Positions 20,171 to 55,400 of a stretch of 64,000 nt of DNA are shown piece after piece (positions within the stretch are counted from its first letter, which is position 1; every line of letters begins with the position of its first letter). The stretch lies in NCBI RefSeq assembly GCF_030655665.1, contig NZ_JAUSPQ010000004.1, positions 1 through 64,000 on the forward strand, written 5' to 3'. Below the pieces are notes generated by a model. That model did not search any database. It worked only from the letters and a program-made list of their open reading frames with translations, and was not told where the DNA came from. A program made the position numbers and the translations under genes. The stretch comes from Methanocorpusculum sp. GTDB lineage: Archaea; Halobacteriota; Methanomicrobia; Methanomicrobiales; Methanocorpusculaceae.

Positions 20171-22081
20171 TCAGCACTTTACATCGCAGGTAATTGTCTG
20201 AGCAATCTTTTCCTTGAGGATGTCAAGGAATTTGGACCACATTACATCGAAATGCTCATCATGGGAGATGAAGGGATTGAGCAGGCAGACACGGAGCACA
20301 TACACCGATCCGACACGGTCCCATTCTCCCTCCGGGATGCCGAGCCGCTTCACGAAGTTTCTCGGAGCATTGCCGTAGTCTTCCCGGGCAAGGGCAGTCT
20401 TCGAGGTGATCCAGTCATTTTTATACACAGGTCCGCTGACGTAGGAAGATTCGTCGTAGATTTTTTGGTTTAAATTGTTCATGGCATCCAGATTTGTATT
20501 CCCCACCTCGTTGAAAGCCAAACACACGATATTGAAGTCGGGTTTTTCCGCAAGAGTTTCCACCTGGAATTTTCTTCCATTCACCGTCAGGTATTTTGTC
20601 TTATCCAGCGCCTTGGATAACATCTGGGCGCCTTCGATGCTTCGGCCGATAATCCTGCCGTACCCGGTTACATTCAGCGGGATCAGTCTGTGTGTTGCCC
20701 AAACCGCAGCTGCCGTGGCCCCAGCCTTTGATCCCTCCATAATATAGCTTCCAAGCAGGGTTGGCGAATCCTCTCCCGCTTCAAAGACATATGCGGCAAA
20801 GTACGAGATAAGATCGAGAATACGCCTGTCCTTAATGGTAATGCCTCCGGCAGAATAGGGAATATATCCCATCTTATGCGGATCGATGGTTATCGAATCA
20901 GCAGCCGGTATTGCCTTATATGACTCATAAATCTTTTTTAGCGGGTAGTCATGTTCGTGTACAAATATCCCGTCGGCACTGAGGCGTTCTTTTACTTCCT
21001 TAAACTCCATGAAACGATTATTCTCGTCAAGGAAGAGAGCTCTTGAATAGCCGCCGTAGGCTGCATCGATGTGGAAGTAGAAGTTGATACCCTGTTTCTC
21101 ATACTCCCCGCGTAATTTTACGATCCTGTCGATCTCATCGATGGCACCCTCTTCCGTCGTTCCAACAACGGCGACAACAGCAAGGATCGGGACCTTTCGT
21201 GCGACATGATCATCGATGATACTCTTGAGCGTATCGATATCCATGTGATACTGGTCATTTACCTGCACCTGGATAAGATTCTTGTTTCCAATCCCGAGAA
21301 CATCGGCAGCCTTCACCCATGAATAATGTTTGGACTGAGGAACCAGTACCACGCCAAGCCTACCATCACCGGCGCCGATACCTCTGGCGCTTTCGTTTCT
21401 TACCTCGTCGAAACATCCTGCTTCTTTCACTTTCCCAATAAGGTCAAGAACCTGGCTGGTACTCATGTTCATGATCTGCCAGTCGTCAAGCCCCGGCACA
21501 AGGTCGGCCCGGATCTTTTTCACCGCTGGTGGGAACGATTTGAGGTTTCGTGCCATCCACAGACCCTCATAATTTGCAATGGTACCGTCGGTAGTGATAT
21601 GCCCCCATGACTGTTCGGGGTCAAAACCCAGCATCGTGGCCATGTCCTTTCCGGCTTCGATTTCCATCGGAGTCGTCGCGGTTGATGCTTCATATGCCAC
21701 GTTGTTTGGATTGTAGAGGATCGTCGCCATATAAGCGAGGTTAGCCACCATCAGAGTGTCGGAATTCATGTGACCGAGGTATCTGGATGAAAACCAGGGC
21801 ATTGAAGTTTCTTTAAGTTTGTTCGACAGCTGCATGAGCACTTCAGATGTGCGGTCAAGTGTTGTCTGGTACTCCTCGCTTCTCATCTCCTTTGGAGAGG
21901 AGACCATCCTGTCTTCAGGATGGAAGTCACTTCTCCAGTGCATATGCTCATCCATCAGGAAATTAAGCATATTCTTGAAATAATCGCGGTTCTCGGACTT
22001 TGGCCCCAGGAAGAGAGCCTTCACTTTGAGGGCATCTTCATTTACGCAGGGGGATGTGCTGTTTTTTTCAGTATTTGTCAT
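20171..22081 (-). CDS. Tyrosine decarboxylase, bacterial group II type
   Basis: A 636-residue PLP-dependent decarboxylase. Length and pattern match the lactic-acid-bacterial tyrosine decarboxylases (about 610-625 residues): RYLGHMNSDTLM, NNVAYEASTATTPME, WGHITTDGTIANYEGLW, VPQSKHYSWVKAADVLGIG and SITIDPHKMGYIPYSAGG. Lys403 in the last motif is the PLP lysine, and FHIDAAYGG holds the ring-stacking His. It is much longer than the archaeal MfnA tyrosine decarboxylase of methanofuran synthesis (about 380). The antiporter gene lies 14 bp upstream. The pair would take up tyrosine and export tyramine, consuming a proton. Substrate is assigned from family resemblance; glutamate is less likely. Confidence 0.82.
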   Translation of the reverse strand: MTNTEKNSTSPCVNEDALKVKALFLGPKSENRDYFKNMLNFLMDEHMHWRSDFHPEDRMVSSPKEMRSEEYQTTLDRTSEVLMQLSNKLKETSMPWFSSRYLGHMNSDTLMVANLAYMATILYNPNNVAYEASTATTPMEIEAGKDMATMLGFDPEQSWGHITTDGTIANYEGLWMARNLKSFPPAVKKIRADLVPGLDDWQIMNMSTSQVLDLIGKVKEAGCFDEVRNESARGIGAGDGRLGVVLVPQSKHYSWVKAADVLGIGNKNLIQVQVNDQYHMDIDTLKSIIDDHVARKVPILAVVAVVGTTEEGAIDEIDRIVKLRGEYEKQGINFYFHIDAAYGGYSRALFLDENNRFMEFKEVKERLSADGIFVHEHDYPLKKIYESYKAIPAADSITIDPHKMGYIPYSAGGITIKDRRILDLISYFAAYVFEAGEDSPTLLGSYIMEGSKAGATAAAVWATHRLIPLNVTGYGRIIGRSIEGAQMLSKALDKTKYLTVNGRKFQVETLAEKPDFNIVCLAFNEVGNTNLDAMNNLNQKIYDESSYVSGPVYKNDWITSKTALAREDYGNAPRNFVKRLGIPEGEWDRVGSVYVLRVCLLNPFISHDEHFDVMWSKFLDILKEKIAQTITCDVKC

Positions 22082-22095
22082 GGTATCTTCAATAA

Positions 22096-23517
22096 TTATT
22101 CTTTAGTCTCAGGTTGATTCTGCTTCCACTCGGGCTTTTTGAAGGCATAGATGATTAAAGGTATGGCTGCGACGACAACCGTTCCGATGATCATAAATGC
22201 CACATAGCCGCCGCCCTCTGAAATCTGGGTTGGAGGCAGCATTGCGACAATAAAGAGGATGGTCATCATCAGAAATCCAAATCCTCCGACAAGCCACATT
22301 CCTGCCTTTCCGCCGGGGATTTTAAATGCCCTTGGAACGTCTGGACGTGTGTATCTGAGCCTGATTGCTGCAGCATACATCAGTAAATACATGACGATGT
22401 ATACGGTTGTCGTCAGAGCAAAGAGCATCCAGAAAGAGCTGTTTACTCCTCCGGGAGCAAGGGCATAGACCGCTCCCCAGAAGGTGATAAGTATTCCCTG
22501 GAGGATGAGCATATTTACCGGGATGTCGTTCTTGTTTTTCTTCTGAAGGAGAGGAGGAAGCGTTCCTTCTTTGGCTGTCGCAAAAAGACCTCTGACCGGC
22601 CCTAAGATCCATGTAGAGACCTGACCGATCGCCCCAATTGCAATGAGCAGAGCGATGATCATGACCAGCCATGAGAACGGACCGGCAAAGATTACTTCAA
22701 AGGTCTGCATGATCCCTGCAAGAAGGTTGATGTTGTCTGCCGGCACGAGTAATGCGACGATAAGTGCACCAATGATACTTACCGCTGTGATGACCAAACC
22801 GACGGTAAAGATACCAAGCGGGTAATTTTTCTTGACATTGCTGATATCCCGTGCATGGCTTGCGGTCATCTCGATACCGATGAACAAAAAGACAAAGGTG
22901 ACGAGCATGACCAGATTGGAAAGGGATGAAAAGTCAGGAATGAGGTCTGCGACCGTCGGCTGGAGAGTGAGCTGAACAGGGTGTCCGGAGAAGATGTACC
23001 ATGCTCCGCCAACAAGAAGTATGGCTGCCGGAATGAAAGTTCCTAAGACAACGGAGACGGAACTGATTCTGGTATATGCTTTAAGGCCCCTGAAGTTCAG
23101 GAAGGTCAGACCCCACCAGACAATTACAATGAAAACGAACAGATATAATTTGTTATTCGCAAGCTCCGGGTTGATGATGTAGGAGAATGTTGCAGCAATG
23201 AAGGTCAGAACACTGATAAATCCGATCGTCATCTGGAACCACTGCAGCCATATGGCCGTAAAACCCCATTTCTCTCCAAATGCCTCTTTTACCCATACAT
23301 AGACACCACCTTCCTGCGGCCAGCCTGTGGCTAGTTCAGCCGAAACCAGGGAGGCAGGGATGAGGTATACGACGAAAGCAAGGAGGCAGAAAAAGATCGA
23401 CTGCCAGCCCACCTCACTTTGCGATGGGAAGGTACGCATACTCATGATAGCTGCAAAAGTAATCAGGATGAATGCGGTTAATGATAACTTATAATTAATC
23501 GAAGGTTTTGTTGACAT
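22096..23517 (-). CDS. Amino acid/amine antiporter of the GadC/TyrP type (APC superfamily)
   Basis: A 473-residue APC-superfamily protein with about 12 membrane helices. The first helix is SLTAFILITFAAIMSMRTFPSQSEVGWQ and the signature LATGWPQEGGVYVWVKEAFGEKWGF is typical for amino-acid/amine exchangers next to decarboxylases. FIGIEMTASHARDISNVKKNYP is the unwound helix-6 region. The start at 23517 is clear. It is the first gene of the unit, 14 bp before the tyrosine-type decarboxylase, so it likely exchanges the amino acid for its amine and creates proton-motive force or acid tolerance. Confidence 0.85.
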   Translation of the reverse strand: MSTKPSINYKLSLTAFILITFAAIMSMRTFPSQSEVGWQSIFFCLLAFVVYLIPASLVSAELATGWPQEGGVYVWVKEAFGEKWGFTAIWLQWFQMTIGFISVLTFIAATFSYIINPELANNKLYLFVFIVIVWWGLTFLNFRGLKAYTRISSVSVVLGTFIPAAILLVGGAWYIFSGHPVQLTLQPTVADLIPDFSSLSNLVMLVTFVFLFIGIEMTASHARDISNVKKNYPLGIFTVGLVITAVSIIGALIVALLVPADNINLLAGIMQTFEVIFAGPFSWLVMIIALLIAIGAIGQVSTWILGPVRGLFATAKEGTLPPLLQKKNKNDIPVNMLILQGILITFWGAVYALAPGGVNSSFWMLFALTTTVYIVMYLLMYAAAIRLRYTRPDVPRAFKIPGGKAGMWLVGGFGFLMMTILFIVAMLPPTQISEGGGYVAFMIIGTVVVAAIPLIIYAFKKPEWKQNQPETKE

Positions 23518-28433: not shown

Positions 28434-29267
28434 CTATTTTTCCCACCAGATATGAGCAAGGTACGATGTGCTTGGAACACGGACTCCTGCATCGGTCTTC
28501 TCGAATTTATTCGCGAGATACGCGTTCACGATCTCCTTCTGCCAAGGTTCCGATGCCGACAAACGGCCGTAATAATCCTCCTGCATGTCCAAAACGGTCG
28601 AATAGAGATGACCATTCGTCTCGGTTTTCAGGTTGATATTTGCATTGATGTCAAGCTGATTCAATGCATTCCAGAGCACGGATGCATTCGGTGCACTGTA
28701 ATACGGTTTTCCGTGCAGACTCTGCCAGAGATCTTCATGTCCCCATGATGAGGATTTTGAGGTCAGATACCAGTAGATATGGACACCTTTCTTTGAAGCA
28801 CCGTCCATCTTAAGCATGTTTTCCCGGAGATTGCCAAACATAAGCGATCTTGACGCGATCACAAAGTCATGACTGCCTGCCTCTTCCGGGGTTACATTCT
28901 CCCAGCGTTTGCGGATCCCGGCGATCTCCGGAGCGTGCATATGCATCCGGTATTTCTCCATCGCCTCACCCATCGGAATGGATGGTTCGATGACGGTTAC
29001 CCGGCAGCCGGCACAGGCAAGAGGGACAGCGAGGGTTCCGGGTCCGGCACCAATGTCAAGGACGGTGGATCCCGGCGGGATGTTCATTGATGCAATGTTA
29101 TCCTCGATCTTGCCGCCTTTTTTATTAAGAAGATGCTTGACGAACCGGTCGACATTTTCCTGGTCCGACCAGAAACTGTCTTCTGTATCGCCCGGGTTGA
29201 GTTTTCCTTCAAGAGCACGTGTATAGGTTTCATCCCAGATTTGGCAGTAGTCCGGTAGTTCAGTCAT
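28434..29267 (-). CDS. Class I SAM-dependent methyltransferase
   Basis: A 277-residue Rossmann-type methyltransferase. Motif I is STVLDIGAGPGTLAVPLACAG and the motif II acidic residue follows in VTVIEPS. HDFVIASRSLMF is the motif IV region. The N-terminal part (DYCQIWDETYTRALEG) probably covers the substrate. It is divergent from the ABC importer/nitrogenase-like cluster across about 350 bp that contains a palindrome, so it may share regulation and pathway with it. The methyl acceptor is unknown; a link with the imported or reduced compound is a hypothesis only. Confidence 0.82.
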   Translation of the reverse strand: MTELPDYCQIWDETYTRALEGKLNPGDTEDSFWSDQENVDRFVKHLLNKKGGKIEDNIASMNIPPGSTVLDIGAGPGTLAVPLACAGCRVTVIEPSIPMGEAMEKYRMHMHAPEIAGIRKRWENVTPEEAGSHDFVIASRSLMFGNLRENMLKMDGASKKGVHIYWYLTSKSSSWGHEDLWQSLHGKPYYSAPNASVLWNALNQLDINANINLKTETNGHLYSTVLDMQEDYYGRLSASEPWQKEIVNAYLANKFEKTDAGVRVPSTSYLAHIWWEK

Positions 29268-29600
29268 ATATATTATGGTTTATTTTTGCAGATTATAAAC
29301 TACCACTGATTGTCATTTTTGATAACGGACAAGGGAGTTCAACACTTGGAAAATACTATCGACACCCTTTTGAACGTATAAGCAAGAAAAATGACACTTT
29401 CGTTATGATAAAAATCTCCAGGAATCAATTTGGAGAGAGAAAAGCATGGATTCAGTCAACTCTGCAATCATTTACCAAAAAGAGATCACTCCAAAATATT
29501 ACCAAAGCTTAGATTATTAAAATATATCACATATCATTTTTTTATACTGCAATATATAGTAATAATATATAGTGTTTTATTAATATCAAATACGTCAAAC
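29268..29600. promoter_or_regulatory. AT-rich divergent promoter region of the nitrogenase-like cluster
   Basis: A 333-bp very AT-rich region between the methyltransferase gene and the binding-protein gene. Plus-strand TATA-like sequences lie near 29541 and 29551-29572 (AATATATAG, ATAATATATAG). No gene is supported. Transcription from these elements would start close to the palindrome at 29601-29618. Confidence 0.5.
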
Positions 29601-29618
29601 AATATTATAGATAATATT
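29601..29618. promoter_or_regulatory. 18-bp palindromic operator candidate at the start of the cluster
   Basis: AATATTAT-AG-ATAATATT is a perfect 8+8 inverted repeat ending immediately before the ATG at 29619. There is no ribosome-binding site there, so the element probably serves as a repressor site around the transcription start of a short-leader mRNA. A metal-responsive regulator would fit the genes behind it, but this is inference. Confidence 0.5.
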
Positions 29619-30740
29619 ATGACACATAAAAAAAATGTTTATCTCCCACTTATCATAGTGATCATTATTGCGATATGCGCAATTGCCGGATGTATTGGAA
29701 CAAGTCAGCCAACCATTGGTCCTGGCACAACGTTCACTGACCTTGCAGGAAACAACGTCACCCTCCCTGAATCAGTTGATCGAGTGATTATCACTTCCAT
29801 GTCGCCGATGGTGCCCATTTATGTCTACTACATGGATGGAACCGACAAACTGGTTGGTGCAAACTCGGCAGGTATCACCTACGCAAAATCAGGAGTTATG
29901 TCAACGATTTATCCAGAACTTGACTCTGTAGAAACCGGATTTGTTCAGGGAACTGTTATCAACATCGAAGAAATTCTCCGACTTGATCCCGATGTTGTCA
30001 TCTACACCGGATCACGTCAGGATGAATATGCCCTTCTCACAGATGCAAATCTTACTGCAGTCGGATTCACCACCTCACTTGGCGCCACTGGTTACAACGT
30101 ATTTACTCAACTCGACCTCTGGCTCAATCAATTAGGAAAAATAGTTGGAGAGACCAACAAAGCCGATGACCTCATCGCTTATAACACCGAAGTTCAGGAA
30201 AAAGTCGCTGAAAAAATCGACACAGTAACTGACAACGAAAAACCGCGTGCATTAATCATCTTTACCTACAAAGAAGGAACCTTGCAGGTAGCAGGAAGCG
30301 GGCACTATTCTGAATACTGGTTGAATGCAACCGGAGCAGAAAACGTTGCTTCCGAACTTTCCGGACTCAAACCAGTTGACATGGAACAAATTATTGCATG
30401 GGACCCGGAAATTATCTACTTTGCCAACTCCCAGAATGCTCTGCCTTCCGACCTCTACAACAATACCATTGCCGGTTACGACTGGAGTCAGGTAAGTGCA
30501 GTCAAAAACAAACAGGTATACATCTTCCCCTATGCAACCTACATGTCCTATGCGCCGTCTCTCGAAGATGGACTCGTCCTTCAGTGGATGGCACAGATTA
30601 ACCATCCAGATCTGTTCAAAGATCTTGACATGGAAGAAGAAACCTCATACTTCTTCAAAGAATTTTTCAACTATACTGCGACAGATGAAGACATCAAAGG
30701 ATTCCTGAATCCCGAATACATTGCAGTAAGACTCCATTAA
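29619..30740 (+). CDS. ABC transporter binding lipoprotein, iron-chelate/corrinoid type (FecB/BtuF family)
   Basis: A 373-residue class III periplasmic-type binding protein. The N terminus (THKKNVYLPLIIVIIIAICAIAGC) is a signal with lipobox IAGC. The fold starts FTDLAGNNVTLPESVDRVIITS and LDPDVVIYTGSRQDE, typical of siderophore/cobalamin binding proteins, with the long backbone helix in the middle. The start is at 29619 because upstream sequence in frame is AT-rich and has no coding character. It is the first gene of a six-gene run with permease, ATPase and three nitrogenase-like genes. The ligand is probably a metal chelate or tetrapyrrole, but this is not visible in sequence. Confidence 0.9.
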   Translation: MTHKKNVYLPLIIVIIIAICAIAGCIGTSQPTIGPGTTFTDLAGNNVTLPESVDRVIITSMSPMVPIYVYYMDGTDKLVGANSAGITYAKSGVMSTIYPELDSVETGFVQGTVINIEEILRLDPDVVIYTGSRQDEYALLTDANLTAVGFTTSLGATGYNVFTQLDLWLNQLGKIVGETNKADDLIAYNTEVQEKVAEKIDTVTDNEKPRALIIFTYKEGTLQVAGSGHYSEYWLNATGAENVASELSGLKPVDMEQIIAWDPEIIYFANSQNALPSDLYNNTIAGYDWSQVSAVKNKQVYIFPYATYMSYAPSLEDGLVLQWMAQINHPDLFKDLDMEEETSYFFKEFFNYTATDEDIKGFLNPEYIAVRLH

Positions 30741-30741
30741 G

Positions 30742-31746
30742 ATGAAAACTGTCTCAAAAAAATCATTTTTCATTTTTTTATTTTTTCTTCCGATAGCAGT
30801 AGCTTGTCTTGCCCTCTGTGTTGGGAGATACTGGATCAACCCCATTGATGTCTATGGAGCGTTTCTGGCATTTTTTGGATATCCCGTTGAAACGACCATC
30901 CAATCAGTTGTTCTCAACCTCCGGCTTCCGCGAATCCTTCTCGCTCTCTTTGTAGGAGCAGGTCTTGCCATTGCCGGCACAGCGTTTCAGTCAACATTTT
31001 CAAATCCCTTAGCTTCACCGGATATCATCGGGGTTTCATCGGGAGCTGCCTTTGGCGCAGCACTTGGTCTTTTGCTCTTTGAAAATATGTTCATTGTTCA
31101 GATTCTTGCAATAATTTTTGGTCTCGCGGCGATTGGGATTACATTTGCTTTAAGTAAAGCGGCAAAAACCGATTCGATCCTCATGATAGTGCTTGCCGGC
31201 ATCATCGTCTCCGGATTTTTTACAGCGATGATTTCATTGGTAAAATATACCGCCGACCCTCTGCTGAAACTTCCTGAAATTACCTTTTGGCTTATGGGCA
31301 GTTTGGCAGGGGCGAATTATGAAAAAATTGTGATTGCAGCACCGCTGTTGCTTCTTGGCATCATTATTATCTGGATAATGAAATGGCGTTTAAATATCCT
31401 TGCGTTAAGTGAGGAGGAGATCCAATCATGCGGAATCAATCCAAAACGTACCAGGTGGACAATAATCATCGCTGCAACATTGATTGTCGCAGCGACAGTA
31501 TCACTATGCGGACAAATTGGATGGGTTGGATTAGTGATACCTCATGTTGCCCGAATGCTGGTTGGTTCAGATAATCGCTATGTTATTCCAGCAAGCATTA
31601 GCATTGGAGCCTGCTATCTTCTGATAATCGACACACTCTGCAGAACAATATCACCATCAGAAATTCCGTTGTCTATTATGACAGCATTGATCGGAGCGCC
31701 ATTATTTGCATATCTGTTTCTTAAAAAAGCGAGATCATGGCTATGA
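30742..31746 (+). CDS. ABC transporter permease, FecCD/BtuC family
   Basis: A 334-residue permease with about ten helices. RLPRILLALFVGAGLAIAGTAFQSTFSNPLASPDIIGVSSGAAFGAALG is the diagnostic FecCD N-terminal block. The cytoplasmic coupling segment and QIGWVGLVIPHVARMLVG are the second family landmark. It begins 1 bp after the binding-protein stop and overlaps the ATPase start by 10 bp. It would dimerise to form the pore for the compound captured by the lipoprotein. Confidence 0.94.
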   Translation: MKTVSKKSFFIFLFFLPIAVACLALCVGRYWINPIDVYGAFLAFFGYPVETTIQSVVLNLRLPRILLALFVGAGLAIAGTAFQSTFSNPLASPDIIGVSSGAAFGAALGLLLFENMFIVQILAIIFGLAAIGITFALSKAAKTDSILMIVLAGIIVSGFFTAMISLVKYTADPLLKLPEITFWLMGSLAGANYEKIVIAAPLLLLGIIIIWIMKWRLNILALSEEEIQSCGINPKRTRWTIIIAATLIVAATVSLCGQIGWVGLVIPHVARMLVGSDNRYVIPASISIGACYLLIIDTLCRTISPSEIPLSIMTALIGAPLFAYLFLKKARSWL

Positions 31747-32525
31747 AACTAACAATTCAAAAAGGATGTTTTGGCTATCATGATGATTATTTGTTTAAAG
31801 ATATTAATTTCACGGTGAATGACCAGGATGTCTTCGCAATTCTTGGACCAAACGGCATTGGAAAAACAACGTTACTGAAATGTATTATGAATATGCTTCC
31901 TTGGAAACAAGGACATGCATATCTGGATAAGACCGACATTTCAACACTACCGTCCAAAGAATTCTGGAGGCAGGTATCTTACGTTCCGCAGGCAAAATCA
32001 TCGGCATTCAACTATCTTGCTCGCGACATGATTATGCTTGGACGAAGTGCCCATCTTCCTTTTTTCAAAGAACCAGGCGATTCTGACATGGAAATTACCG
32101 AACGTGCCATGGAGACTCTTGGAATCACACATTTAGCGAACCGCTCTTGTAAAACACTTTCCGGGGGAGAAATGCAACTGGTTTTAATTGCCCGGGCACT
32201 TGCAACTGAGCCAAAAATATTGATTATGGACGAACCTGAATCAAATCTGGATTATCACAACCAACTCATGATTCTGGAAAAAATACATGATCTTTCAAAA
32301 ACGATAGCCTGCATCATCAATACTCATTATCCGGAACATGCTTTGCGTATCTCTAACAAGGCGTTGATGTTTCTCGGGAATGGAGAGACTATCTGCGGCA
32401 ATACGCCTGACATTATTACAGAACAGCATCTTCGCGATGCATTTCGGGTGAATGTAATGATTGGAAATGTTTCAGACGGAACCAAAATCCATCAATACAT
32501 ATTACCAATATCCATCAGAAAATAA
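31737..32525 (+). CDS. ABC transporter ATPase, FecE/BtuD family
   Basis: A 262-residue ATPase. Walker A is LGPNGIGKTTLL, the Q-loop VPQAKSS, the signature LSGGEMQLVLIARAL, and Walker B ILIMDEPESNLDY. It overlaps the permease by 10 bp (ATG at 31737; a second ATG at 31743 is possible). A 10-bp gap with a ribosome-binding site (AAGGAG) then leads directly to the NifH-like gene, so importer and reductase genes form one transcription unit. Confidence 0.94.
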   Translation: MAMKLTIQKGCFGYHDDYLFKDINFTVNDQDVFAILGPNGIGKTTLLKCIMNMLPWKQGHAYLDKTDISTLPSKEFWRQVSYVPQAKSSAFNYLARDMIMLGRSAHLPFFKEPGDSDMEITERAMETLGITHLANRSCKTLSGGEMQLVLIARALATEPKILIMDEPESNLDYHNQLMILEKIHDLSKTIACIINTHYPEHALRISNKALMFLGNGETICGNTPDIITEQHLRDAFRVNVMIGNVSDGTKIHQYILPISIRK

Positions 32526-32535
32526 GGAGTTATGA

Positions 32536-33282
32536 ATGAAAAAAATTGCATTTTATGGAAAAGGCGGAATCGGAAAATCAACCTGTGTCTCAAATATATC
32601 TATGGCTCTCGTTGAACAGGGATTCACGGTCATGCAGATTGGCTGCGATCCAAAAGCGGACTCAACAAGAAATCTTACCCGCGGGGATCCGATTCCATCT
32701 GTTCTCTCAGTTATGCGGGAGAAAAAGAATGACATTTGTCTGGACGATATTGTTTACTGTGGATCCGGCGGAATTTTGTGCGTAGAGGCAGGAGGCCCAA
32801 AGCCGGGATCGGGTTGTGCAGGTCGCGGTATTATTACTGCGTTTGAACAATTGGAGGAACTTGGGGCATATAAAAAATATCATCCAGATATTATTCTCTA
32901 TGATGTTTTAGGAGATGTGGTCTGTGGAGGGTTCGCCCTGCCGATTCGTCAGGGATATGCAGATGAGGTGTGTATTGTAACATCCGGCGAGATGATGTCC
33001 TTGTATGCGGCAGATAACATATCTCAGGCGGTTAAAAATTATTCAAAACGCGGATATGCAGCATTGAAAGGACTCATATTCAATGCAAAAAATATTGAAA
33101 ATGAAGATGAGATTGTGGAAAAAGCGGCTGCAGAAATGAATACAAAGGTTTTGTCCAGGATTAACCGTGACCCGATTGTCCAAAAGGCTGAAAATGCCGG
33201 CATGACTGTTGTGGAATATGCACCGGATTCATCTCAAGCAGATTTGTATAGAAAACTTGCAGGAATTTTACTTGAGGATTAA
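32536..33282 (+). CDS. NifH-like ATP-dependent iron protein (nitrogenase-like)
   Basis: A 248-residue homologue of nitrogenase iron protein. The P-loop is YGKGGIGKST near residues 7-16, the switch element GCDPKADSTRNL follows, and the two cluster ligands are Cys94 in GSGCAGRGI and Cys130 in YDVLGDVVCGGFA, which bind one 4Fe-4S between two subunits. It is shorter than genuine NifH (about 275-290). It should be the ATP-driven electron donor for the NifD/NifK-like pair downstream, from which it is separated by 2 bp. This is not molecular-nitrogenase NifH; other known donors of this kind serve F430, chlorophyll or sulfur metabolism. Confidence 0.92.
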   Translation: MKKIAFYGKGGIGKSTCVSNISMALVEQGFTVMQIGCDPKADSTRNLTRGDPIPSVLSVMREKKNDICLDDIVYCGSGGILCVEAGGPKPGSGCAGRGIITAFEQLEELGAYKKYHPDIILYDVLGDVVCGGFALPIRQGYADEVCIVTSGEMMSLYAADNISQAVKNYSKRGYAALKGLIFNAKNIENEDEIVEKAAAEMNTKVLSRINRDPIVQKAENAGMTVVEYAPDSSQADLYRKLAGILLED

Positions 33283-33284
33283 AT

Positions 33285-34511
33285 ATGAATAAACTCTGTT
33301 TCTGCTCAACCACCTATGGAGGATATGGGATTGTAAGAGTCGGTTCATTAATTCCGGAAAGCTATCTATTGTTTGTCTGCCCGCCATCATGCGGGCGGCA
33401 CACATCCATCAATGCAATTCAGCAGGAGTATAAAAATAGGATCAGTTATCTTTTCTTTGATGAGCATGAACTTGCTCTTGGAATGGTTGAAGATGAGCTC
33501 TGTAATGCTATTGATGAACTTCTACCTCAGATACAACGCCCTAAAGTATTTTTGGTATATATCTGCTGTGTTCTTTATTTAGCAGGATTTGATGAAAAAA
33601 GTATAATTGATGAGCTGAAAAAGCGAAATCCCGACATTGTATTTCAAATTTGTCTGATGAATCCAGTGTCTGCAGATACGAAACGTCCCCCTGGACTGAC
33701 TATGCAGGAGAAGATGTACTCATTACTGGATTTCTCTTCATCACAACTGAACACGCTCAATTTTATTGGGAATAATGTGCCGATCAATTCCAACAGCGAA
33801 ATTTATGAAGTGCTAAAAAACTGTGGGGTTACAGAGACATTTCATGTATCTGACCAACCCTCATTTGAAGATTTTAGACGAATGGGGCGATCAAAATGGA
33901 ATCTGGTGGTTCGTCCCGAAGCGATTCTTGCAGCAAAAAGTCTAAGTTCCCGAATGGAATTTCGCTTTGTTCCGGTCTCTTATGATATTATTCAGATTAG
34001 AGAGCAGTATGAAGAGATATTTTCGATGCTTTCTGCACGATGCGAGCTCGAAGAGTATGAAAAACGTGCGCGGGAAGCAATCAATAAAGCAAAAGATGCA
34101 GTGGGAAAAAAGCCGATCGCAGTCGGAGCATCTGCGGTATGCAGACCGTTTAGTCTTGCTCGGGCATTGATAATCTATGGCTTTGTTGTCACTGACATTT
34201 TCGGAAAAGATGTTGTGCCCTTTGAACGCGAAGCGTATGAATGGATACGAAAGTATGCTCCGGAAATTGTGATCCATGATACGAAAGATCCCGCAATGAC
34301 GAATAACATTGGAAAATGCGGTATGGCGGAAATTGCTGTCGGATATGATGCAGGATATTTCGCAGGTGCTGAAAGTGTGGTCGATTTGCTTGGTGATGAA
34401 GGGATGTTTGGCTACTATGGGGTAGAACTCTTGATGAATCTTTTGATAGAGAGTGTCTCTCATCCAAAGGATCTGCGCAAAATGATTGAAGCTTATGGAC
34501 TGGTGGCATAA
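33285..34511 (+). CDS. Nitrogenase component 1-like protein, NifD-like
   Basis: A 408-residue member of the nitrogenase component 1 family, shorter than NifD (about 480). Candidate cluster cysteines are Cys32 and Cys36 in FVCPPSCGRHTS and Cys94/Cys95 in VYICCVLYLAGFD, at the places of the P-cluster ligands. I could not find convincing equivalents of the FeMo-cofactor ligands (Cys275 and His442), which speaks against nitrogen fixation. The C terminus has EIVIHDTKDPAMTNNIGKCGMAEIAVGYDAGYFAGAESVVDLL. It is followed directly by the NifK-like gene (stop codon next to start codon). The substrate is unknown. Confidence 0.86.
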   Translation: MNKLCFCSTTYGGYGIVRVGSLIPESYLLFVCPPSCGRHTSINAIQQEYKNRISYLFFDEHELALGMVEDELCNAIDELLPQIQRPKVFLVYICCVLYLAGFDEKSIIDELKKRNPDIVFQICLMNPVSADTKRPPGLTMQEKMYSLLDFSSSQLNTLNFIGNNVPINSNSEIYEVLKNCGVTETFHVSDQPSFEDFRRMGRSKWNLVVRPEAILAAKSLSSRMEFRFVPVSYDIIQIREQYEEIFSMLSARCELEEYEKRAREAINKAKDAVGKKPIAVGASAVCRPFSLARALIIYGFVVTDIFGKDVVPFEREAYEWIRKYAPEIVIHDTKDPAMTNNIGKCGMAEIAVGYDAGYFAGAESVVDLLGDEGMFGYYGVELLMNLLIESVSHPKDLRKMIEAYGLVA

Positions 34512-35675
34512 ATGAGCCATCTGTTTGTACACCTGCCGTCATTTGCAACGGATTATTCCGGCGCCGCTTCGGTATTTTATAATATGGGCGGGCTTGTAGT
34601 GATCCATGAACCATCAGGATGTATGGGTAATTTTACCGGATTTGACGAACCCCGCTGGTATCATGCTCCAGAGATGGTATTTAGTTCATTTATCCGTGAG
34701 GAGGAGGCAACGATGGGTGATGATTCGATTCTTCTCGATAAAATTCTTCAGGAGTGCAAAAATCATCATCCCAAATTTGTTGCAATTCTTGGAACACCAG
34801 TCCCTGCATTAATCGGTTGTGATATCTCGGGAATTGCTGCTGAAGTTTTTGATGCTGCCAAAATTCCCGCATTTGGGCTGAATACTACAGGATTTCAGTA
34901 TTATGATGATGGTATCAAAAAAGCTCTCCTGATGATCGAAGAGCAGTTTATGAAGGAATCGGGAGTAAAAGAGCCAAAAACAGTCAATATCCTCGGATAC
35001 ACCCCCTTAGATTTTTTCATTTCAGGCGACGATCGAAGATTAGCATCATTTGTAGAGTCGTGCGGATACCGGGTATTATGTTTTCTCCCCGGAGATGATC
35101 TGGAGACGATTATCAAAGCACCCAATGCGGAAAAAAATATTGTGGTGTCCGCGGCAGCAATTCCTCTTGCAGAAAAAATGAAGGAAAAATATGGCACTCC
35201 TTTCTGCGCAATGCTTCCGGGAACTACTAACGACAAAGAGAAAATGCAGGCATTTTTACAAGATTATACGCCGCAACTTCCCGCCCCTCATGTTTATTCC
35301 AGAAAAGCGCTTGTGATTGGGGAACAGATTTCTGCGAACACTAGACGTGATTTCCTGATTGAAGACCTGAATTATTCTACGGTGAATGTCGCCACATTCT
35401 TTGCATTTGCTGGTTCTATCGCACGTGAAGGAGACATCAAACTTTCAAATGAACTACATCTTCAAAAACTTATCGAAGAAGGATGTTATGATCTCATTGT
35501 TGGTGACCCGCTGTTTGAACGGTTTACGAACCAGCAACAGATTTTTGTTTCACTTCCGCATCCGGCAGTGAGCAGTAAATTACACTGGCATTCGTATGTT
35601 TCTCTTCTCAACAATGATTTTTCAACATATCTTTCTGCAAAGATAAATCACAAGAGTCCTGTAACATTACAGTAG
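34512..35675 (+). CDS. Nitrogenase component 1-like protein, NifK-like
   Basis: A 387-residue second component 1 homologue. It opens with TDYSGAASVFYNMGGLVVIHEPSGCMGNFTGFDEPRWY, where Cys37 occupies a P-cluster position and the DEPRWY block resembles uncharacterised nitrogenase-like proteins of anaerobes (from memory). Cys82 and Cys103 (IGCDISG) are further ligand candidates. It should form a heterotetramer with the NifD-like protein and receive electrons from the NifH-like protein. The gene ends the cluster; an inverted repeat follows. Neither the cofactor nor the substrate can be deduced. Confidence 0.86.
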   Translation: MSHLFVHLPSFATDYSGAASVFYNMGGLVVIHEPSGCMGNFTGFDEPRWYHAPEMVFSSFIREEEATMGDDSILLDKILQECKNHHPKFVAILGTPVPALIGCDISGIAAEVFDAAKIPAFGLNTTGFQYYDDGIKKALLMIEEQFMKESGVKEPKTVNILGYTPLDFFISGDDRRLASFVESCGYRVLCFLPGDDLETIIKAPNAEKNIVVSAAAIPLAEKMKEKYGTPFCAMLPGTTNDKEKMQAFLQDYTPQLPAPHVYSRKALVIGEQISANTRRDFLIEDLNYSTVNVATFFAFAGSIAREGDIKLSNELHLQKLIEEGCYDLIVGDPLFERFTNQQQIFVSLPHPAVSSKLHWHSYVSLLNNDFSTYLSAKINHKSPVTLQ

Positions 35676-35786: not shown

Positions 35787-37136
35787 TCAGGCAAATAATT
35801 TGGTATTATCCTGTTCATCGCCCGTTGTCTGGGAAGCTACTACCGCTGTGACCACCTGGGTGATCGCATTCCGCACGATCTCAAGACCCTGCATCAGCAT
35901 AGCATCATCGGTCGTTAATGCAGGCATCAGCTTCACAACCGAGTCCTCTCTGCCCGAGAGCTCAAGGATGAGCCGGTTTTCAAAGCACAGCTGTCTGATC
36001 TGATGAGCGGTCCCTGCAGGATATGCCCCGCAGTCGATACCCCACATCAATCCAAGACCCCGGAAGGTCAGCCCCGGATCAATGAGCGGCAGGTTTGCAG
36101 CCAGATAATCCTGAACGATCTTACCTTTTCGAACGGTCTCCTCTTCGATATGCTCATTGAGCATGAACTCGAGAGCAGCCTTTCCTGCAACGAACGAAAG
36201 CTGGAAGCCTCTGAATGTTCCGTTGTGCTCACCTGGCGCGAGGACATCATACTCCGGCTTCACCAGAGCAATCGAACACGGCATGCCGATACCGCCGATG
36301 GATTTTGCCATGACCACGATATCGGGAACGATACCGCCGCGTTCGAACGAGAAGAACGAACCTGTCCTGCAGCATCCAGTCTGGATCTCGTCCAGGATCA
36401 GCAGCATATCATGTTTGTCGCATAATGCACGGATGTCTCTGAGCCACTGATCCGAGACGATATTGATACCGCCCTCTCCCTGTACGGATTCGAGAATAAT
36501 GGCCGCCGGTTTATCAACACCGCTGTGATCATCACTCAGGATCATATCGATATACTCGATCGTGTCCAGATTCTTCATCATCGACGGATGAGGAACATGC
36601 GTTGCATTTCCGAGAGTCACACCACAGGCTTCCCGTGCAGTTCTCTCCGTCGTCAGAGCAAGAGCTCCAAGAGTCATTCCATGGAATCCGCCCATCAATG
36701 CCAACACGTTGGATCTGCCTTTCGCCTTGCGGGCGATCTTTAATGCAGCTTCAACAGCATTTGTCCCAGTCGGTCCCGGAAACAGGATCTTATAATTGAG
36801 ACCGCGCGGGATCAGAACATACTTCTGCATGAACTGAATGAACTCGCCCTTGGCAATGGAATACATATCCAGACCATGGATCAAGCCATCACTCTGCAGA
36901 TACTCGATCACTTTTTCTTTGATATAGTCATTATTATGACCATAGTTACAGCTGCCGGCCCCACAGAGGAAATCGATATACTCGATCCCGTTCTGATCAA
37001 TTAGTAAAGAGCCTTTGGCTTTTGAAAAAATAACCGGATACTTCCGACAATACGACCTTACGTTACTTTCGAATTCTTCGAATAAGGTTGTTTCCATCAA
37101 GACGTCATTTGTGTTTTCAAGACCCATAGACCACAC
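35787..37136 (-). CDS. Diaminobutyrate-2-oxoglutarate aminotransferase-like enzyme (EctB family)
   Basis: A 449-residue class III aminotransferase. IPRGLNYKILFPGPTGTNAVEAALKIARKAKGR and LALTTERTAREACG are close to the EctB/Dat pattern, and MAKSIGGIGMP carries the PLP lysine. It would interconvert aspartate semialdehyde and 2,4-diaminobutyrate. The ectA and ectC genes of ectoine synthesis are not adjacent, so the product may feed another pathway, for example 1,3-diaminopropane or a diaminobutyrate-containing compound. The start is placed at 37136; an ATG at 37124 is an alternative. Confidence 0.85.
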   Translation of the reverse strand: MWSMGLENTNDVLMETTLFEEFESNVRSYCRKYPVIFSKAKGSLLIDQNGIEYIDFLCGAGSCNYGHNNDYIKEKVIEYLQSDGLIHGLDMYSIAKGEFIQFMQKYVLIPRGLNYKILFPGPTGTNAVEAALKIARKAKGRSNVLALMGGFHGMTLGALALTTERTAREACGVTLGNATHVPHPSMMKNLDTIEYIDMILSDDHSGVDKPAAIILESVQGEGGINIVSDQWLRDIRALCDKHDMLLILDEIQTGCCRTGSFFSFERGGIVPDIVVMAKSIGGIGMPCSIALVKPEYDVLAPGEHNGTFRGFQLSFVAGKAALEFMLNEHIEEETVRKGKIVQDYLAANLPLIDPGLTFRGLGLMWGIDCGAYPAGTAHQIRQLCFENRLILELSGREDSVVKLMPALTTDDAMLMQGLEIVRNAITQVVTAVVASQTTGDEQDNTKLFA

Positions 37137-37446
37137 TCCTTTTTAGCTAGTATGAAAGTACAGGAAATCTAGCCCCGCAACCGGGCGGCTCTGAGATTAC
37201 TAAACTTAATTGCCCCCCCCTAGGCTTAAAGGTGTCCCTCGTAAAAGAATGGAGAATTGCCTGATTTATGGACTTTGGGCCGATATCCATGGACTTCAAA
37301 AAACCAAATGCATGCCCGGATTTTCCATTTATGTCACAAGGGGGGTTGAATAGTTTTGGGTGACTGGGCTTCAGCGGTTTTTTGGAAAAAGAGGGGGGGG
37401 GTATACGCGCATAAGCGGGGTAAAAAAATATTTGCCGAAAGGCGGT
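37137..37446. other. Intergenic region with C8 and G9 homopolymer tracts
   Basis: About 310 bp without a gene. It contains eight consecutive C (37213-37220) and nine consecutive G (37393-37401). The two tracts are complementary and could pair. The region upstream of the EctB-like gene has AT-rich promoter-like sequence. No conserved element was recognised. Confidence 0.4.
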
Positions 37447-38901
37447 TTACCGAAGCTGCCGCTCGACGGTGATCTCGCCCAGATCGTTGATGCCGATGAC
37501 TTTCTCTCCGGCATCTCTCAGCTTTTTGATGTACTGTATGACCTCTTCGGTGAGCTGTTCGCCGGGGCAGATGAAGGGGATGCCCGGCGGATAGGGGATG
37601 ATCGATGAAGCACATATCCTACCGGCACCCGCAAGTAGCGGGACGCGTTCCTTGTCCTGCGGTACAGGGAACAACCGAAGTTTTTCTTTGAGGACCGCAG
37701 TGACCGCGGTTTTTGCTGGCGAGGCGGCGGCCGCGACGCTGCAGCATGCACTAATATCTTTCAAAGCTTCGATCAGCCGTTTACTGTCGCTGAGTGTATT
37801 GCCGATCCCTGTCATGCACATGAGGATCGGGCCGGTGGTAAGTTCAGCAAAGATCCCGCGTTCCATCAAAAGTTCTTCGAGTCGTGCCCCGTCGATGCCG
37901 ACCGCACTCATGTCGAGGTTGATTTTCGTGATGTCCATACTTATATTCGCGTCAGCATCCAGAGGACTGCCGATGACCTTGAGACCTTTGACGGCAGGCG
38001 CCTCCTGATAGAAGTGCATGAGGCTCTCATGCCACTCGGTCATGAGGGTCGTTTGGTGTTCGTTCAGGATCGCGGCATTTATGTCGAGCGAGCCCATGAG
38101 AAGATACGAGGGGCTGGTGGATTCCAGCATCTGAAGTTTGTCTTCCAGTACATAATGATCGACCCAGTCGGAGTTGAGATTGAGTACCGCACTTTGCGTA
38201 AAGGAGGCGAGGGTTTTGTGGATCGAGTTGACGACGATGTCGGCACCCTGCTCTTCGGCGGATTCGGGCATGTCGGTAAAGCCTGCGTTACGGAAGAATT
38301 TGAGGTGGGCGCCGTGCGCCTGATCGACGATGAGGACCTTCCCGCGGCGGTGTACGACTTCGGCGATGGCCCGGATGTCGGAGCAGATTCCGTAATAATT
38401 TGGAGATGGAAGAATTACTGCCTCGGCTTCGGGATTTTCGGCAAGACACCGTTCGATCTCATCTGCAGTGATGCCGCCGGAGATGCCGTATTCACTGATG
38501 ATCTCGGGGTAGGCATAGACTGGCTGGATGTCAGCAAGGACGAGAGAGTTGAAGATCGCCTTATGGGAGTTGCGGGCCATGACGAGTTTTCTGCCTTTGG
38601 GAACGGAGGCCATAACGGCGGCAATAACGCCGCAGCTTGTACCGTTGATGAGGAGATAGGAGCGTTGTACACCGTAGAGTTCGGCATACTTTTCCTGAGC
38701 AGCTTTGAGGATGCCTTCGGTCTGGAAAAGGTTGTCGGCGCCGGGGATCTCGGTGATATCGCAGTCCATCATCTTTTGGAGGAAGTCATCGTAGCCGAAC
38801 CGCCGGTAGACGGCGGAGCCTTTGTGGCCGGGCATGTGGAAGGAGACGGTTTTTTTGTCTGCATGTTCCGTCAAAAACGTTATGATCGATGGTGTATTCA
38901 T
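37447..38901 (-). CDS. Orn/Lys/Arg decarboxylase family, fold type I
   Basis: A 484-residue PLP decarboxylase of the SpeA/LdcC-like family that lacks the wing domain of the large biodegradative enzymes. VSFHMPGHKG near the N terminus, ARNSHKAIFNSLVLADIQP, VLIVDQAHGAHLKFF and VNSIHKTLASFTQSAVL (PLP lysine) are all present. The C terminus, YPPGIPFICPGEQLTEEVIQYI, is typical. It could make a polyamine precursor from arginine, lysine or ornithine. The start at 38901 is preferred because AAGGGA precedes it. It is upstream of the EctB-like gene, 310 bp apart, so a joint diamine pathway is possible but unproven. Confidence 0.87.
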   Translation of the reverse strand: MNTPSIITFLTEHADKKTVSFHMPGHKGSAVYRRFGYDDFLQKMMDCDITEIPGADNLFQTEGILKAAQEKYAELYGVQRSYLLINGTSCGVIAAVMASVPKGRKLVMARNSHKAIFNSLVLADIQPVYAYPEIISEYGISGGITADEIERCLAENPEAEAVILPSPNYYGICSDIRAIAEVVHRRGKVLIVDQAHGAHLKFFRNAGFTDMPESAEEQGADIVVNSIHKTLASFTQSAVLNLNSDWVDHYVLEDKLQMLESTSPSYLLMGSLDINAAILNEHQTTLMTEWHESLMHFYQEAPAVKGLKVIGSPLDADANISMDITKINLDMSAVGIDGARLEELLMERGIFAELTTGPILMCMTGIGNTLSDSKRLIEALKDISACCSVAAAASPAKTAVTAVLKEKLRLFPVPQDKERVPLLAGAGRICASSIIPYPPGIPFICPGEQLTEEVIQYIKKLRDAGEKVIGINDLGEITVERQLR

Positions 38902-38949
38902 GGCATTCCCTTGTGGGTACAACGTACAACGCCTGTCGAATTATATTTT

Positions 38950-52494: not shown

Positions 52495-55400
52495 TTAGGG
52501 AACTTGCATATTTTCTTCATAGATAGGTCGGAGAAAATCATAACCCGCTTGTAAATAACTATTGCATATCATATCTGCATTTCTGCGTTCATTTAATTGA
52601 TAAAGTATCTTCACAAATTGAACAATTTTGTCTTCAGGGTGCCTAGAGTATTGTCCTGATTCAATCATAATTAGAAACAGTTCCACACAACGTTTTGGTT
52701 GTGATGGGGCGTGTTTGATTAAATTGTCGATGAATTTTGTTTCAAAGGGTTTCATGTACTTTACTGATAGTTTTAGCCACTCACATATTTCATCGGTTAA
52801 TTCATCGACTAAAGATATCCAGCAATTTAGTTCAGCTAATATTTTGATGTTGTCACTATTTTCCGGATCCTCTTCGATTTTAGAAATAATGATGTTCCAG
52901 AGCGATATAACCATTGGACGCTTCTCTGGAGGGAGTTTATTACCATAAAATCTAAATGAACGTATTAATTGTATAATCTGTTCAGAATCCCATCGGTCAA
53001 AAACTTGGTTGATCAAACTTTCTTTCTCACTTAATAGCTCAAATCCTTCTAGATATCCCTGACAAATATGATTTACTAAATGGCGATTGATACGTAGCTC
53101 TTTAAATTCCGTTTGAATTGCTTTTGAGTAATGCCCATTCTCTTTAAGCAATATATAGATATTTTTGGAAATATTTGAATTGAATAAATACGCTGTAAAT
53201 GCAGCATTCCAATGTTCGTCATTTTCTTGGGGGAATATCTTATTGATATTTTCTCTTACCCAGGAATTATCGAGATAACAGAGGTTTGAAAGATATTGAC
53301 CTAGAGTCACAGAAAATTCCACCGTCTGTTCAAATGTAATATCAAGTCTTCGTTCAAACTCAGCTTTAATTGTTTCCGGCCATCGTATTTCATCGGTTTT
53401 ACGATAATGGCGGCCAAAACAAAGAGAATAACATACCATCGATGAATAAATATGCCCTTTAGCTGAATTTAAGACGGAAGCCACAAGGTCGCCCATTGGA
53501 TAGAGATCGGACTCAACGTTATTAGAGAGAGTTAAGAGAATCTTCTCAACTTCCGGTAACAACTCCATCTCTATTAAGTGAGCATCATTTCTGGTTCCTT
53601 CTTCAAATAATCTTGTAATTCCGGAGATTATCTCTTTTCTGTAGTTAATTTCTCCATCTTGATATGCTTCTGTCCAAAATTCATCAGAATCAATGATGGA
53701 ATTGATGTATTGAATGACAGGATTCCAGTTGAATTGTTTATCTGCTTTCCAGGCTTCAGATAAGCCATATATCAATTCAGATTGATATAGCCGTTTTAAT
53801 GTTAGAAATGGATCAAGATATTCAACAAATTTTACGGGATTATCAATAATGCTTAATCGAAGGACATTACCAAGAGAGTGAGCTGATACAAATATCTCTC
53901 CAAAGTCTTCTCTCTTAAAATTGTTGAGATATTCGGCAATGTCATAATTAGATTTGCTAAGAAGTTCCTCTTTTGATAGAGGAGATTGGGCAGCATCCAT
54001 ATAATCTCTTGCACTTCGGTTTGGAGGTTGGTTTGGAGGTGATAGTTTTACAGGATTTATCTGATTATATTTATCGAAAAGGGATTTAACTATTGGATTG
54101 TTTGCTTCCAATAACGCAGATAACCATTCTTTTTTCCACTCTGCAAGATATAGTTTCTGAATTTCTAAATCATGAGATAATTTATCTTCATGATAGTCTT
54201 TAGTCTCGATCCAGTCAATAATCTGTGTAATTTCTGATTCCGAAAACTCTTTGCAGTGATTGGTAAACAAGTCATATACTTCAGTTTTAAGATGATATTC
54301 CTGAAGTGGATTTTCTTTGTAATTCCAAAATATCTCATTTAATTCCGGATAATGCTCATCTATCAAACAAATTGCGATTCTCTTGAAAATTGGGTGATCT
54401 TTCTCTAACAATGACTTCGTAAGATCTTGGATTTCCTCAATATTCATCATATTGAGCGCAATCCAAACGAAATGAACTATTTGATAATCATACCTGTCTG
54501 AATATTCATCATCTTCTTTAATCGAGGGGATCCAGACAGGATTGAACTGAGTTGAATCTTCTCTCACAATTATCTCGATTTTTTCTAATGCGATTTTTAT
54601 ACTGTCCATCGCACATAATGTTATAATTCTCTCAGAGAATGTCTCTAATATTAAATTGAGATAATATTCTTCAAGATTAGGGCTATATAGAATAGAGATA
54701 TATTCTTCAAATGCCGGAATTTCATTTTTCTTGAAATCTAATACGATATCAAGAACTTCAAGAAGTAATTCTTTATTACCGTTTTCAAGAAGTCGCGGAA
54801 TGATAGTTTCAGCAATATCATGTGCAAAATAGAGGGTATCAGTATAATCATGCATACATTTTTTAATATAATCAAAGTGGAACTGACTGATTTCATTTAA
54901 AGGAAGGAGAAAGAGTATGCGTATGATGTGCTGGTCTGTTAAATAATTTAGGATACGCTCATTTTTTGCATCTTTATATTCTATAATCGATTTGATAATT
55001 GTAAGGATTTCATGTGTTATCTCTGAATTGGGATTGGTTTGATTAAGTTTGGCAATATTTTCTAAAACCCCCATAACAATCCAATATGACACGGATCCAT
55101 TGACCGGTGCGGGATTATTTTTTGGATTGAAATATCCTCTTTCTTAAGAGGAATTAACCAGGGAAGAGAATTTTGTGATTGTGATAATTGTTTAAAGAAC
55201 TCTAATTTGCAGGATCGATCATTATTGATTTCTTGGAATATCTTCCCTTCTTTCAATGGATCATAATTATTAGCTGCATCCCTAAATTCATTAAATAATG
55301 CATAAAATGCACGAGATTCAAGAATTATATTTCGATTCCATGTTTTTATCACATTGAATAACTGATTATAATCTCTATTACTATCCAGATAAGGAATTAC

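Follow-up and report, generated by a model that had tools for sequence, protein, structure and literature searches.

What does a nitrogenase-like enzyme do when it is encoded in one operon with an importer? The question is raised by a 64,000-nt stretch of Methanocorpusculum sp. contig NZ_JAUSPQ010000004.1 (the window), in which an operon at 29619–35675 on the + strand comprises six consecutive open reading frames (ORFs), which either overlap slightly or lie no more than 10 bases apart: a substrate-binding protein (SBP), a FecCD permease, an ATPase and three nitrogenase-like proteins, NflH, NflD and NflK (HDK as a set). An earlier interpretation, hereafter the sequence-only reading, had described six head-to-tail genes at this place, and the ORF map and Pfam matches agree. 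We find that importer and HDK enzyme form one conserved module. With a probability of roughly 45%, we propose that the operon encodes an import-coupled two-component nitrogenase-like reductase, in which an imported small, probably metal-bearing compound would be reduced and the product would feed metallocofactor assembly.

The six-gene linkage recurs well beyond chance. Mapping by tblastn placed the same genes next to one another in 16 genomes including the window's, belonging to Methanomicrobiales-like archaea and Clostridia and showing two main gene orders. A first protein scan gave four clostridial relatives, each with the six genes side by side, arranged as H-D-K-SBP-permease-ATPase or SBP-permease-ATPase-H-D-K. 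The sequence-only reading had tied an ATP-binding cassette (ABC) importer to a nitrogenase-like enzyme and had named absence of this linkage from relatives as evidence against it; the linkage is instead retained. Close relatives of the D gene within the host's phylum (394 genomes) were found only in one congener, among eight others drawn, and in one genome of the same order; 25 of 391 genomes in the class of Anaerobacterium gave a match. No other nitrogenase-type protein was found in three of the first four bacterial hosts, so a supply of NifEN or of the iron–molybdenum cofactor (FeMo-co) is not required. A separate, distant HDK clade is likewise joined to a FecCD importer at three loci (L108, L109 and L111), which suggests a recurrent principle behind this pairing. 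This clade, also found at L124 and L125, has a D protein with three candidate cluster cysteines and a K protein with none obvious; at L124:12838–13761, a nitrite/sulfite reductase-like protein with ferredoxin domains adjoins an SBP-permease-ATPase set close to the De/Ke pair.

Which enzyme is coupled to the importer? In both the D tree and the K tree, which contained no BchNB sequences and in which CfbD was a long branch, the 37 rows form one clade with support of 100, outside the host's NifD, NifK, NifE, NifN and CfbD and outside MarD, the last represented by locus L114 (5e-152 to 9fmg). BchNB show remote profile similarity only (5e-12 for the NflK profile against BchB), the CfbD family TIGR03282 matches neither D nor K of the window, and NflDK score below the curated NifDK family cut-off and lie outside the NifDK clade. 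By these comparisons, NflDK appear as a new deep branch of the nitrogenase superfamily, outside every characterised clade tested. Membership of Mar, Nif or CfbD is rejected by the trees together with the ligand residues, in keeping with the earlier claim that the system is neither CfbCD nor Mar, for which placement in a characterised clade had been the named counter-evidence. That claim's companion, that no described system matches, also held among the open-access papers searched on HydG-less maturation and on nitrogenase-like proteins, which gave no account of such a system. NflH (32536–33282, +; Fer4_NifH PF00142, 1e-95) carries the P-loop GKGGIGKST and the two cluster cysteines, C94 and C130, of the NifH/Fe protein family, all as first read from the sequence; both cysteines are invariant in the alignment. 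It scores close to CfbC and NifH (NCBIfam) and matches 1cp2 at 2.7e-77. The host genome (1.8 Mb, 98 percent complete), whose gene content points to a Methanocorpusculum-like methanogen, further encodes an ordinary nif cluster, a CfbD locus (L018) and, on contig 6, a separate H gene with a D/K pair, so the window HDK is one among several family members. The contig 6 set (L016:6021–8986), an extra H with a D/K-like pair, has no adjoining importer and carries no assignment to a named group.

The predicted cluster ligands set NflDK apart from nitrogenase. NflD (33285–34511, +; 408 aa; Oxidored_nitro PF00148, 1e-17) and NflK (34512–35675, +; 387 aa; PF00148, 1e-29) share only three cysteines that are invariant over the 37 rows (37/37 each): C36 (codon 33390–33392) and C95 (33567–33569) of D, and C37 of K (34620–34622), K also having the motif GC-x-G-N-x4-DEPRW. 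These three had been among the ligands first put forward, as had D C94 and K C103, whose conservation is not borne out in the 37-row alignment, and D C32, which is only partly conserved (7/12, 5/5, 10/10 and 0/10 in four groups). Nitrogenase has a P-cluster set of three cysteines per subunit; D contributes C36 and C95 and K contributes C37 alone, the second K P-cluster cysteine site being proline in 36 of 37 rows (Pro96 in the window). At the position of the FeMo-co ligand alpha Cys275, the aligned residue is R210 in the window D, with cysteine in 0/37 rows, and S213 in the window K. This pattern fits one simple Fe–S cluster common to D and K, and would predict neither a P-cluster nor FeMo-co. 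With the clade separate and neither a P-cluster set nor the FeMo-co cysteine present, the description of a nitrogenase-like protein that is no nitrogenase is upheld. A confident AlphaFold2 model of NflD has the nitrogenase/BchN fold (predicted TM score 0.81), and the NflK model is weak (mean predicted local distance difference test score 66); both are single chains modelled from five-row alignments.

The importer half is a complete FecCD-type set. The SBP (29619–30740, +) is a lipoprotein with lipobox IAGC (Peripla_BP_2, 2e-23), and is followed by the FecCD/BtuC-type permease (30742–31746, +; FecCD PF01032, 2e-89) and the ATPase (31737–32525, +; ABC_tran, 3e-31), whose gene overlaps that of the permease by 10 bases. 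Among the NCBIfam matches listed, 0 of the 6 operon proteins reached a curated equivalog cut-off, and the importer scored below those for vitamin B12, heme and F420-0. Searches with the SBP family profile gave 4ovk (4.5e-82) and MolA (3psa/3psh, 7e-37) as the closest solved structures, with BtuF matched at only about 1e-6. An Rfam scan near 14 loci found no riboswitches, the cobalamin type included. In three genomes (L094, L095 and L097) the importer ATPase bears a C-terminal TM1266 domain over cut-off, so that the importer itself is linked by gene fusion with the [FeFe]-hydrogenase system.

Where, then, might the product of such an enzyme go? In part of the clade, relatives of the module lie within hydrogenase-maturation loci, a link that lay beyond the reach of the sequence-only reading. 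At L090 the order is HydE-H-D-K-SBP-permease-ATPase-HydF, then a TM1266-like ORF, and at L094 it is permease-ATPase-HydE-H-D-K-SBP-HydF. A more elaborate operon at L107:576–17249 runs HydA-H-D1-K1-HypF-HypC-HypD-HypE-TM1266-D2-K2-HydF-HydE, its first gene encoding a group A6 [FeFe]-hydrogenase. Seven loci (L098, L099 and L103–L107), in genomes without HydG, share the H-D1-K1-HypF-HypC-HypD-HypE arrangement, mostly followed by TM1266-D2-K2-HydF. HydF, sometimes HydE and often TM1266 are thus located within the HDK cluster; representative HydA, HydF, HydE, HypF, HypC and TM1266 proteins exceed curated cut-offs, and at L090 and L107 the TM1266-like ORFs were identified by sequence reading alone. 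HypD is single-copy and within the HDK cluster in ten HypFCDE-type hosts and has 0 copies in five importer-type HydG-less hosts, a distribution that makes HypFCDE with a second DK pair, on the one hand, and the importer, on the other, alternative partners of HDK. In the D tree the importer-linked form is paraphyletic: a HydG-less branch (importer-type plus DK2, support 100) is nested within it, and the HypFCDE-linked DK1 forms a separate clade.

The gene content of the hosts follows the same association. HydG exceeds its cut-off in 241 of the 391 genomes in the class of Anaerobacterium, and HydA-type proteins are found in 363. Across 15 clostridial genomes with the hydrogenase-associated HDK branch, a tally that leaves out the hosts of L009, L011 and L012, HydE and HydF are both over cut-off in 15/15 and HydG in 0/15, with weak HydG matches in two (G607 and G715). 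The ratio of HydG absent to present is 15:0, compared with 103:207 in other genomes with a strong HydA match (E<1e-80, a limit of our own choosing, applied to genomes listed by hand; Fisher p=1.4e-7, too optimistic a value because the D genes of the 15 hosts form one clade). The HydF proteins of these 15 hosts do not group together. When 80 genomes were sampled from the 102 others that are strong in HydA, negative for HydG and without this HDK, HydF was present in 11.

These observations lead us to favour import-coupled reduction. The FecCD-type importer would take up a small, probably iron-bearing compound; ATP-gated low-potential electrons would pass from NflH to the Fe–S cluster at the boundary of NflD and NflK; and reduction of the compound would take place in a cavity equivalent to the cofactor or tetrapyrrole site of other family members. 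In metallocofactor assembly the product may serve as an activated metal unit, given that the sister branch accompanies HydE and HydF, replacing HydG, in [FeFe]-hydrogenase maturation clusters. An ancestral module that imported and reduced a small compound could later have been recruited to give HydE/HydF an iron unit upon HydG loss. More tentatively still, either NflHDK (twice) with HypF-C-D-E or NflHDK with the importer may replace HydG in building the H-cluster with HydE/HydF, the window's importer-linked form being ancestral and processing an imported iron complex that possibly already bears CO/CN ligands. Nitrogenase Fe proteins are able to reduce CO2 to CO, which offers a candidate mechanism for the CO part of HydG replacement.

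Several points weigh against this proposal. MolA, the best characterised relative of the SBP, binds oxyanions, and the substrate assigned here is putative. The Fisher test overstates independence, and across genomes HydG loss is not independent of the ABCx/DK2 clade. Eight of the 11 HydF-positive, HydG-negative genomes lack any nitrogenase-type protein over family cut-off; HDK as the sole HydG substitute is accordingly rejected, and either other HydG-less routes exist or some of these genomes are incomplete. The window organism and two archaeal relatives lack HydE and match HydF only at the background level of GTPases. Two further hosts (G538 and G397) lack HydE, HydF and HypD yet retain the ABC-HDK module, so the importer-linked form functions without either hydrogenase pathway. 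Carrying the cofactor-assembly role over to the window is consequently a weak step. For the window we commit to import and reduction, as far as sequence allows us to infer; a hydrogenase role there is not supported, given that HydE is missing and HydF stays below cut-off.

Other substrates would give the same gene set a different meaning. The sequence-only reading had named a metallophore, a corrinoid or a tetrapyrrole as possible substrates, of which the corrinoid and tetrapyrrole options gained no support. A BtuC-like importer could supply a tetrapyrrole or corrinoid to be reduced by NflHDK, as in dark-operative protochlorophyllide oxidoreductase (DPOR) or CfbCD; the FecCD/BtuC permease type, the NflH score near CfbC and NifH, the single simple Fe–S cluster predicted as for DPOR/CfbD, and the 5e-12 match of the K profile to BchB all speak for it. 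We nevertheless regard it as unlikely, because the SBP is nearest to 4ovk and MolA, with BtuF at only about 1e-6, no cobalamin riboswitch was found near the 14 loci, D and K fall outside CfbD in the trees, and the linkage to HydE, HydF and HypFCDE would be left unexplained. Equally improbable in our judgement is reductive iron acquisition alone, in which a ferric metallophore would be imported and HDK would reduce metal or ligand for release, the hydrogenase link being a later reuse. The FecCD type of the importer and the presence of the module in G538 and G397 would suit this account. Ferric siderophores, however, do not as a rule require potentials at the level of nitrogenase, genes for metallophore synthesis were not recognised next to the module, and the loss of HydG would be left without a reason.

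The standing of MolA as top characterised SBP relative (7e-37) raises the thought that molybdate or tungstate is taken up and processed by HDK for a Mo/W or Fe–S cofactor. Such an oxyanion route is very unlikely: the similarity to MolA may be family-level only, the FeMo-co cysteine is absent and NifEN are missing from three of the four hosts tested. A Mar-like C–S or sulfonate reductase, or a nitrogenase variant, would account for the shared superfamily and the complete HDK set, and is still harder to credit given a clade separate from MarD and Nif, Arg (D) and Ser (K) in place of the FeMo-co Cys275 equivalent, and incomplete P-cluster cysteines.

The operon's surroundings are less constant than its contents. 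A divergent S-adenosylmethionine methyltransferase gene (28434–29267, −; CpaM-like, score below cut-off) exists as the sequence-only reading had stated, but its suggested part in the system does not stand: it recurs beside the operon only in the congener L053, no methyltransferase of this type was found at the clostridial loci, and the archaeal locus L054 has different ones. We therefore reject it as a conserved member of the module; it is a genus-level neighbour. The flanks of L054 (L054:4610–17999), the second archaeal locus, hold three additional binding proteins and two O-methyltransferase-like genes. On the other side of the window operon, at 35787–38922 on the opposite strand, lie a diaminobutyrate-type transaminase and an Orn/Lys/Arg-type decarboxylase, possibly for polyamine synthesis; both adjoin the operon in L053 too. 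Farther away are a tyrosine decarboxylase-type gene adjoining an amino acid permease gene (20171–23517) and an ORF of 865 residues without a Pfam match (52495–55092). The operon has a GC content of 42.4 percent compared with 48.7 percent in the rest of the window, which is compatible with horizontal transfer and no proof of it.

NflDK thus add to the nitrogenase superfamily a branch that is partnered by an importer and, among relatives, by hydrogenase cofactor assembly genes. HydG-less maturation in acetogens has been noted as a gap whose explanation is unsettled (PMC9431212). If HydG replacement is true, it would give a testable answer to how [FeFe]-hydrogenases mature in some HydG-less anaerobes and would place a nitrogenase-type enzyme in organometallic Fe–CO–CN chemistry, with a possible bearing on the source of the CO ligand in anaerobes.

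Comparison with known systems brings out what is shared and what is new. Relatives of HDK adjoin HydE, HydF, TM1266 and once HydA, a feature shared with [FeFe]-hydrogenase maturation by HydE, HydF and HydG; in contrast to that pathway, HydG is absent and HDK appears with HypFCDE or the importer instead, a pattern not seen in the window organism. MarHDK, the methylthio-alkane reductase, is likewise an HDK set of anaerobes; Mar carries nitrogenase-type metalloclusters (PMC12552129), and NflDK fall in a separate clade. CfbCD, the Ni-sirohydrochlorin a,c-diamide reductive cyclase, comes near in the NflH score and in the two cysteines that NflD retains in common with CfbD, whereas NflDK are two different component 1 subunits, accompanied by an importer, in a distinct clade. 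DPOR (BchL-BchN-BchB) likewise has an HDK architecture driven by ATP, with short D and K subunits, no FeMo-co and, as a probable common feature, one simple interface Fe–S cluster; its ligands are three Cys in N and an Asp in B, compared with two invariant Cys in D and one in K, and NflHDK is importer-linked without close sequence relation to it. The type II importers BtuCDF, FecBCDE and MolABC have the subunit composition and families of the window importer, which differs from them in scoring below every equivalog cut-off, in sharing an operon with HDK and in having relatives with partial fusions to maturation or redox functions.

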